Below, piece by piece: positions 62,004 to 64,000 of a stretch of DNA of 64,000 bases (positions within the stretch are counted from its first letter, which is position 1; each line of letters opens with the position of its first letter). The notes below the pieces were generated by a model. It had not been told where the DNA came from. It ran no database searches and was given only the letters and a program-made list of their open reading frames with translations. The DNA comes from Thermoflexus sp. Its GTDB lineage: Bacteria > Chloroflexota > Anaerolineae > Aggregatilineales > Aggregatilineaceae. The stretch covers positions 300 through 64,299 of the forward strand of contig DYGX01000017.1 in assembly GCA_020724465.1 (NCBI GenBank), written 5' to 3'. A program made the translations under genes and the position numbers.

Positions 62004-62621
62004 ATGGATCAGATGTTGCTCTGGATTGTTCTGTGGATCGCCAGCGGCGCGTTTGTCGGCGGCGTGGTGACCCCCGTGCTGGCGCAGGGCCGCCGTATCG
62101 ATGATTGGGCGGCGATGGCGCTCGGCCTGGTGGTGGGCGCGGTCGGGAACATATTGCTGCTGGTTCCGGTCTGGCTGGGGCTGACGCGCGTGGCGCCCGC
62201 CGAGGCGACTCACGGCCCGGCCTGGCAGCGTGACGCCGTGACGCTGGACGAGCTGCTTGCTGCCGAAGCCGCCGGTGCCAGCGTGGGATTGCCCGGCAAC
62301 CCGCTGGTCGCGCTGAAGCGCAACTTCTGGCCCGCGCCGCGCGCCGATCACGCGCACTCGCACCGCATGACCTACGTCGGCGTGTTTGTCGCCCTGGCGG
62401 TGGTGACGGCCATCGAAGTTCTGTTGAGCGTGCTCGACACGCGCGGCGACCTCGGCTTCTCGGTTGTCGCGCCGCTGGCGGCGCTCTCGACGCTGAAGAT
62501 CCTGCTGGTGGTGGCCTACTTCATGCACCTGCGCTGGGAGAACCGCTGGTTCACGCTGGTCTTCGTCGCGTCGGTCCCCTTCGCGGCGATGGTGCTGGTG
62601 GTGCTGGCGGCGGTGGCGTGA
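62004..62621 (+). CDS. Cytochrome c oxidase subunit IV-like protein
   Basis: 205 aa with five probable membrane helices. The first half (MLLWIVLWIASGAFVGGVVTPVLAQGRRIDDW..., GLVVGAVGNILLLVPVWLGL) is not found in the usual 100-residue subunit IV. The second half (YVGVFVALAVVTAIEVLLS, STLKILLVVAYFMHLRWENRWFTLVFVASVPFAAMVLVV) has the subunit IV pattern, including the K-x-x-x-V-x-x-Y-F-M-H-L motif. It follows subunit III by 27 bases. The extra N-terminal part may be fused from another small membrane protein. Confidence 0.85.
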   Translation: MDQMLLWIVLWIASGAFVGGVVTPVLAQGRRIDDWAAMALGLVVGAVGNILLLVPVWLGLTRVAPAEATHGPAWQRDAVTLDELLAAEAAGASVGLPGNPLVALKRNFWPAPRADHAHSHRMTYVGVFVALAVVTAIEVLLSVLDTRGDLGFSVVAPLAALSTLKILLVVAYFMHLRWENRWFTLVFVASVPFAAMVLVVLAAVA

Positions 62622-62649: not shown

Positions 62650-62678
62650 TTGACAGCCGCCGGGCGCGCCGCTATACT
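62650..62678 (+). promoter_or_regulatory. Consensus sigma70 promoter of the his operon
   Basis: Perfect TTGACA at 62650-62655, 17-bp spacer, TATACT at 62673-62678. The predicted start (62685-62686) falls on the ATG of the leader ORF. Confidence 0.85.
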
Positions 62679-62685
62679 GAACAGC

Positions 62686-62778
62686 ATGAAACCAAGCTTG
62701 CCGCACGTCCATGCGCACCATCATGCAAACCGCACCCCAGGCACCCGGCCCGGTGGTGATGGCTGCGTGCGCGCCTAG
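62686..62778 (+). CDS. Histidine-rich leader peptide of the his operon
   Basis: 30 codons from ATG 62686 to TAG 62776-62778. Residues 6-14 read PHVHAHHHA: five His in seven positions (7, 9, 11, 12, 13), extremely unlikely by chance and diagnostic of his-operon leader peptides that sense charged tRNA-His. The ATG coincides with the predicted start of transcription, so the ORF may be translated leaderless. The stop codon lies in a CCTAG/CTAGG hairpin upstream of a terminator and hisG. Confidence 0.8.
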   Translation: MKPSLPHVHAHHHANRTPGTRPGGDGCVRA

Positions 62779-62838
62779 CGAGCTTCTAGGTCACAGGCAT
62801 CCTGACGCCTCTCGGTCCGCCGAGGGGCGTTTTTGTTT
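62774..62838 (+). promoter_or_regulatory. Histidine attenuator hairpins
   Basis: Three overlapping stems follow the His codons: CCTAG/CTAGG (62774-62790), AGG...CAGG / CCTG...CCT (62788-62810) and the terminator (62805-62830). The second shares bases with both others, so they are mutually exclusive, as in known amino-acid attenuators. Confidence 0.7.
62805..62838 (+). terminator. Attenuator terminator before hisG
   Basis: 11-bp stem ACGCCTCTCGG / CCGAGGGGCGT (one G-U pair) with loop TCCG, followed by TTTTTGTTTG; 36 bases before the hisG start. Confidence 0.9.
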
Positions 62839-62873
62839 GGGCCGGTGTGCGCCGGTCGAGGAGAGAGCCTCTT

Positions 62874-63887
62874 ATGATGGAGCATCAAGTGCGGATCGCG
62901 CTGCCCAGCAAGGGCCGGATGGAAATCGAGACGCTGGAGTTTCTGGCAGGCTGCGGGCTGCGCGTGGATAAACGCAATCCACGCCAGTACACCGCCACCA
63001 TGCCCGCCCTGCCCGGCGTGCTGGTGCTGTTTCAGCGCGCCAGAGATATCCCGGTCAGCGTCGCGGCAGGCGACGTGGACCTGGGCATCACCGGTTATGA
63101 CGCGCTGGCCGAGACGATCGGCGGCGAGGCGGACACGATTGTGACCATTCACGACGCGCTGCGCTATGGCGATTGCGCGCTGGTCGTCGCGGTGCCGGAC
63201 GACTGGGACGAGGTGATCACCGCCCGCGATCTGGCCGCCCATGCCCGCCTGCGCCCTCTGCGCGTGGCGACCAAATACCCAAATCTCGTTGCGCGCTTTT
63301 TGCAACAGGCTGGCGCGGACTCCGTGCGCGTGGTGCTGGCGGATGGCGCGCTCGAATCGGCGCCGACGGTCGGCTACGCCGACTTCATCGCAGACATCAC
63401 CAGCACCGGCACGACGCTGCGCGAAAATCGCCTGCGCCCGCTGGAGGACGGCGTGATCCTCACCTCGCAGGCGATTTTGATCGGCAACCGCGCCGCGCTG
63501 TCCGACCGCGACGAGGTGCTGCATGTGGCGCGCAAGATGCTGGAGTTCATCGAAGCGCACCTGCGCGCCCGCGGCCAGTACATGATCTTCGCCAACATGC
63601 GCGGCGAGTCCGCCGAGGCGGTCGCGGCGCGTGTCTTCAGCCAGCCGGACCTGGGCGGCCTGCAAGGGCCGACCGTCGCCCAGATGATCACGCGCCAGGG
63701 CGCGGGGAACTGGTGGGCGATCAACCTGGTCACGTCCGCCGACAGGCTCTACGACGCCATCCAGCAAATCCGCGCTATCGACGGCAGCGGTGTTGTCGTG
63801 ACGCCGGTCACGTACATTTTTGAGGAACTACCCGAACGCTACCAGCGGCTGCTGGCAGCCCTAGACCGCGAGGAAGACTCCCGATGA
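62874..63887 (+). CDS. hisG: ATP phosphoribosyltransferase, long form
   Basis: About 337 aa. First enzyme of histidine synthesis: joins ATP and PRPP. It opens VRIALPSKGRMEIETLEFLAGCGL; VDLGITGYDALAE is the type of segment conserved in HisG, and the PRPP loop is YADFIADITSTGTTLRENRLRPLEDG with the D-x-x-x-T-G-T-T-L signature. Residues from about 245 (MIFANMRGESAEAVAARVF...GLQGPTVAQM) form the ACT-like regulatory domain of the long form, which senses histidine. ATG 62874 or the next codon 62877 both fit; GGAGAGAG is upstream. Expression is probably governed by the attenuator above. Confidence 0.94.
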   Translation: MMEHQVRIALPSKGRMEIETLEFLAGCGLRVDKRNPRQYTATMPALPGVLVLFQRARDIPVSVAAGDVDLGITGYDALAETIGGEADTIVTIHDALRYGDCALVVAVPDDWDEVITARDLAAHARLRPLRVATKYPNLVARFLQQAGADSVRVVLADGALESAPTVGYADFIADITSTGTTLRENRLRPLEDGVILTSQAILIGNRAALSDRDEVLHVARKMLEFIEAHLRARGQYMIFANMRGESAEAVAARVFSQPDLGGLQGPTVAQMITRQGAGNWWAINLVTSADRLYDAIQQIRAIDGSGVVVTPVTYIFEELPERYQRLLAALDREEDSR

Positions 63888-64000
63888 CTCCCACTGCGAT
63901 CCTGCCGATTTACGACGATCTGAGCGCCGCGCGGGCGAGCATTCTGCGTCGCGGCTCGCTGCGCGAGTTCGAGGTCCCGGCGCGTATCGCGGACAGCCTG
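63884..64000 (+). CDS. hisD: Histidinol dehydrogenase, N-terminal fragment
   Basis: Cut off by the window end after 39 codons. ATG 63884 overlaps the hisG stop (ATGA), showing translational coupling. The visible part, YDDLSAARASILRRGSLREFEVPARIADSL, fits the variable N-terminus of HisD, which oxidises histidinol to histidine. The usual place after hisG in his operons and the sequence pattern agree, but no diagnostic motif is yet reached. Confidence 0.7.
   Translation, partial: MTPTAILPIYDDLSAARASILRRGSLREFEVPARIADSL

Follow-up and report, generated by a model that had tools for sequence, protein, structure and literature searches.

A probable histidine leader-peptide attenuator with an apparently leaderless start upstream of hisG in Anaerolineae

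Known attenuators and the hisG upstream region

Attenuation of the his operon through translation of a leader peptide is textbook knowledge in Gammaproteobacteria, and the his leader peptide of Escherichia coli carries a run of seven His. His leader attenuators have also been predicted in some Firmicutes, i.e., the B. cereus group, Peptostreptococcaceae, and Erysipelotrichales (excerpts of PMC9413887). For Chloroflexi, no description of his attenuation was found in the literature searched, in which the 2010 survey of Lopatovskaya and colleagues is represented by its citation (in PMC4833913) and could list this phylum. Furthermore, S. meliloti rnTrpL starts with the ATG of trpL (PMC7298713), and polycysteine leaderless ORFs of mycobacteria have been reported as attenuators, going by a title cited in PMC13236596.

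In the window, as we call the whole stretch of 64,000 nucleotides that was analysed, the region upstream of hisG very probably holds a ribosome-mediated transcription attenuator of the his operon (Table 1). With gammaproteobacterial hisL (RF00514) this locus shares a His-codon leader peptide, predicted competing RNA strands, an intrinsic terminator, and hisG as the first gene, whereas it belongs to another phylum, its His codons are arranged in the alternating order HVHAHHH instead of hisL's run of seven, and its leader ORF apparently has neither 5'UTR nor Shine-Dalgarno sequence; the RF00514 His_leader model gave no match to the window leader even at E up to 10. With the Firmicutes predictions it has in common a His-rich leader, a terminator, and a predicted antiterminator upstream of his genes, the evidence being purely comparative, while those leaders carry three to five His codons in a row, belong to another phylum, and are presented in the excerpts of PMC9413887 with no mention of a leaderless start. 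The mycobacterial polycysteine ORFs (as titled in PMC13236596) and S. meliloti trpL (PMC7298713) resemble the predicted design in having the ATG at the 5' end, codons as the sensor, and an effect on the downstream operon; they concern other amino acids, operons, and phyla, and were experimentally tested, whereas the his leader described here is deduced from sequence.

Table 1. Coordinates of the his leader region and of two further leaders of the same genome
Feature	Position	Strand	Remarks
Sigma-70-type promoter, TTGACA-17-TATACT	62650-62678	+	11/12 consensus positions; relatives share the hexamers, their spacing, and their placement with respect to the leader ATG
Promoter elements	-35 TTGACA 62650-62655; -10 TATACT 62673-62678		17-nt spacer
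Putative transcription start	62685-62688	+	at or beside the A of the leader ATG; from -10 spacing
His leader-peptide ORF, MKPSLPHVHAHHHANRTPGTRPGGDGCVRA followed by stop	62686-62778	+	30 codons; His-rich ORF conserved in relatives
Control codons, also strand 1 of the RNA switch	62704-62724	+	His at 62704, 62710, 62716, 62719, 62722
Strand 2, CCCGGTGGTGATGG	62749-62762	+	predicted to pair either with the His codons or with the 5' arm of the terminator
Intrinsic terminator	62804-62838	+	stem-loop 62804-62831 and T tract
Terminator parts	5' arm 62804-62815 (strand 3); loop 62816-62819; 3' arm 62820-62831 (strand 4); T tract	+
Shine-Dalgarno-like GGAGAG of hisG	62860-62865	+	from sequence
hisG, ATP phosphoribosyltransferase, long form	62874-63887	+	PF01634, PF08029, TIGR00070
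hisD start	63884-64000	+	operon runs on past the window
metG (methionyl-tRNA synthetase) leader, Met-containing ORF and terminator	G000:C33:43386-43425	-	loci L179, L215; outside the window
proS (prolyl-tRNA synthetase) leader, P-T-P-S ORF and terminator	G000:C5:2305-2343	-	loci L168, L240; outside the window

Leader layout and its distribution among relatives

The initial annotation had described a consensus promoter, an ORF coding for PHVHAHHH, an intrinsic terminator, and then hisG, and each of these elements was recovered at the position given for it. Promoter sites as good as the one at 62650 are expected 0.3 times per 3 kb. Its -10 hexamer ends 7 nt before the leader ATG (62686) and its -35 hexamer begins 36 nt 5' of it, and because of this spacing of both hexamers to the ATG, transcription is expected to start on the leader ATG. 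The same 7-nt gap occurs in every relative of the same family, where it leaves no room for a Shine-Dalgarno sequence before the leader ATG and would make the leader ORF effectively leaderless. In most leader loci of other families the gap is 7-10 nt, and where it reaches 9-10 nt the 5'UTR would be about 2-3 nt. The leader mRNA thus seems to begin directly at its start codon, a point absent from the initial annotation. That annotation had also named a hisG promoter 3' of 62838 as an observation that would speak against attenuation, and the window scan found no promoter-like site between the terminator and hisG.

Downstream, the start codon of hisG is ATG 62874 or 62877. The regulatory domain attributed to HisG by the initial annotation was found as PF08029 at the C-terminus, so that feedback on the enzyme is plausible in addition to attenuation. 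In locus L165 (G000:C23:60000-75169), ORFs and NCBIfam matches gave the operon order hisG-hisD-hisC-hisB-two other genes-hisH-hisA-one other gene-hisF over 8 kb; the two non-pathway genes between hisB and hisH (L165:7267-8735) encode a 174-aa protein with no clear family and an ADP-ribosylglycohydrolase-like protein. Upstream of the promoter, 62004-62621 and the sequence ahead of it are taken up by co-directional genes for cytochrome oxidase. Among named sequences, the closest hisG (97% identity) belongs to a MAG that bears the label Anaerolinea sp., and almost every other match was to an Anaerolineae or Chloroflexi MAG, which supports the earlier assignment of this DNA to Chloroflexota.

The comparison of hisG upstream regions that had been proposed beforehand was carried out by gathering HisG relatives through protein search in genomes and inspecting the sequence upstream of each, and it bore out the presence of the His-rich ORF and the terminator. 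In the same family, promoter, His-rich ORF, and terminator were present in 15/15 distinct hisG loci. Of 109 hisG upstream regions, including those that lack a leader, 40 contain a short ORF in which some stretch of 8 residues has 4 or more His, against 0.2 expected from dinucleotide shuffles, while other residues were much nearer to the shuffled expectation (Ala, 25 vs. 16; Arg, 20 vs. 23). The leader reaches further families of the order and class (f3, f8, f16, f27, f33, f53, and f55; more weakly f6 and f58), and wherever the leader is convincing, a terminator precedes hisG as well.

In most sampled families devoid of the leader, hisG is not the first gene and follows a same-strand gene, which was HisRS/HisZ-like in three scanned loci of f2, f4, and f7, and encoded an ATP-grasp protein in one locus of f11; no His leader was found before the HisZ-like upstream gene in families with no hisG leader. 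The 20 hisG upstream regions sampled from the phylum's other classes yielded no convincing leader, and the single region that passed the His threshold (L155) did so with an 86-aa frame outside the leader layout. One MAG (Zod_Metabat.151) carries two hisG copies, each with its own His leader and terminator (L006 and L010). Additionally, a hisG fragment 85% identical to that of the window was observed on a contig labelled Candidatus Brocadiia (L019, JABWAY010000043.1), denoting either mis-binning or transfer.

Proposed RNA switch and alternative explanations

In the proposed mechanism, RNA polymerase would start at or beside the leader ATG and a ribosome would load straight onto the leaderless transcript. 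With ample His-tRNA, the ribosome would reach the stop codon at 62776, strand 2 would be taken by the His-codon strand 1 or by the ribosome itself, the terminator stem would form, and transcription would end before hisG. With scarce His-tRNA, the ribosome would stall on the five His codons, which fall within seven codons, and keep strand 1 open, leaving strand 2 free for the terminator 5' arm, so that polymerase would read into the his operon. Initiation at the ATG, translation of the leader, and the response to histidine are the steps that we infer.

The pairings that this mechanism calls for were followed across relatives. In an alignment of 15 relatives, 99.4% of the cells of the terminator helix are paired, and compensatory change is seen at three pairs. 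Downstream of the His codons, a GGTGGTGATGG-like segment is predicted to pair with them (1:2) and could pair with the 5' arm of the terminator as well (2:3); these pairings overlap in 37/42 loci. Members of the family conserve the 2:3 helix, yet covariation counting among them found no covariation in it; since per-locus dinucleotide-shuffle z-scores for the 2:3 duplex were also unimpressive, a cross-family permutation and a masking test were used as well. When partners were permuted over 21 groups, native pairings beat the cross-family permutations (1:2, z -5.5; 2:3, z -2.9).

For the masking test, each leader was folded as far as the terminator loop in three states: free of ribosomes, with a footprint covering the His codons, and with a footprint covering the stop codon. 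In these 42 loci, which are related to each other, and with a footprint of 30 nt that was our own choice, the mean in silico probability that the terminator 5' arm pairs upstream was 0.34 with no ribosome, 0.63 with the ribosome on the His codons, and 0.39 with the ribosome at the stop codon. Masking the His codons raised this upstream pairing in 38/42 leaders, and for one mid-cluster stall the change was 0.31 in native leaders vs. 0.03 +/- 0.03 when the stretch separating the His codons from the terminator was shuffled. The RNA tests excluded some loci whose His ORF is weak or doubtful (L053, L089, L112, L133, and L143) and a near-duplicate (L001). In this model, the response of the 42-leader set is the signature of a ribosome-mediated attenuator.

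In the window's own leader, the minimum-energy fold (z = -2.7 vs. shuffles) comprises a single long hairpin, which takes in the His codons, together with small local stems and the terminator; the 1:2 pairing has -25.2 kcal/mol (z -2.6). The three overlapping stem-loops of the initial annotation are an interpretation. Masking the His codons moved the upstream pairing of the terminator 5' arm only from 0.48 to 0.57, and in full-length equilibrium folding the terminator probability stayed at about 0.98-0.99 with the ribosome on any His codon, i.e., the predicted antiterminator of this copy, a weak one, does not outcompete the terminator at equilibrium. Antitermination here would therefore have to be kinetic, and since the terminator always dominates the full-length fold, the case for the mechanism draws on the relatives and on folding of the truncated leader, as during transcription. 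The attenuation logic put forward by the initial annotation is supported, with qualifications: as modelled, the relatives taken together give good support to an RNA switch, the switch is weak in the sequence of the window, whose own switching would be claimed on the strength of its relatives, and the response to histidine is a prediction.

A simpler explanation would be that the stem-loop merely terminates the upstream cytochrome oxidase genes, next to a coincidental His-rich ORF. These genes are co-directional, with their last nucleotide at 62621, and intrinsic terminators commonly separate operons; nevertheless, the promoter sits between the upstream gene and the terminator, the His-rich ORF lies between promoter and terminator in many species that differ in upstream sequence, and His is enriched (40 vs. 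0.2 expected). We regard this explanation as extremely unlikely. The ORF might instead encode a functional small protein, e.g., a metal-binding one, co-transcribed with the his operon; a precedent for trans activity of a leader peptide is peTrpL of Sinorhizobium meliloti (PMC7298713). Against this, the peptide varies outside the His cluster in sequence, ending, and length (16-34 residues among relatives), and its C-terminal part is as expected from RNA complementary to the His codons (GGTGGTGATGG), and we regard a functional peptide as very improbable.

It is likewise highly unlikely that the peptide is incidental and that promoter or terminator respond to another sensor, such as a T-box, a small-molecule riboswitch, or a repressor that binds DNA. 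T-boxes do exist in Chloroflexi (PMC3766115), and the excerpts of PMC9413887 report T-boxes or HisR in his operons of other phyla. However, at gathering score neither the window nor the leader loci matched an Rfam T-box or riboswitch, and at E up to 10 the window gave no leader family, just two sub-threshold matches to sRNA families, located on the terminator. Scans of the window and of relatives with the T-box covariance model were negative, and an Rfam scan of leader loci and leader-free loci matched no family. What is conserved is the set of His codons and an ATG at a fixed distance from the promoter.

Leaders before metG and proS and their meaning

A whole-genome pattern search for a promoter and an ATG at the his-leader spacing identified two more short, apparently leaderless ORFs followed by a terminator, before metG (MNEPAWTVVRASMHMRSLPWSGSSRRWRIACA) and proS (MMTILQVPTPSRVHSSATLRGASVS), both absent from the initial annotation. 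Among relatives, MMRM-RLPWS is retained in the metG leader and P-A/T-P-S-S in the proS leader; the -10-to-ATG spacing is 6-7 nt in the family, and a terminator was present in each leader examined. The masking test supports a switch for the proS leaders (change of 0.17 vs. 0.03 shuffled) and was negative for the metG leaders, so that the in silico support for a switch covers his and proS. A short ORF, MDHMTSRHETMRTYQVCMCLKRGR, with near-leaderless spacing before a gene (G000:C10:191522-191562, minus strand; L194) is possibly a further leader.

The case for his attenuation gains credibility from the leaders before metG and proS. Whether leaderless leader-peptide attenuation is a general amino acid-sensing device in this Anaerolineae lineage, serving his, metG, and proS and doing the work that T-boxes do elsewhere, is in our judgement an evenly balanced proposition. 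What would be new here, judging from the literature searched, is the phylum, the apparently leaderless leader mRNA, and the presence of similar leaders before two tRNA-charging genes of the same genome.

In brief, the attenuator proposed here would extend leader-peptide his attenuation to Chloroflexota, in several families of one class, with a design apparently devoid of 5'UTR, which would allow the first ribosome to bind the moment the RNA emerges. Moreover, the his, metG, and proS leaders suggest that ribosome-based sensing is also used in a phylum with T-boxes.
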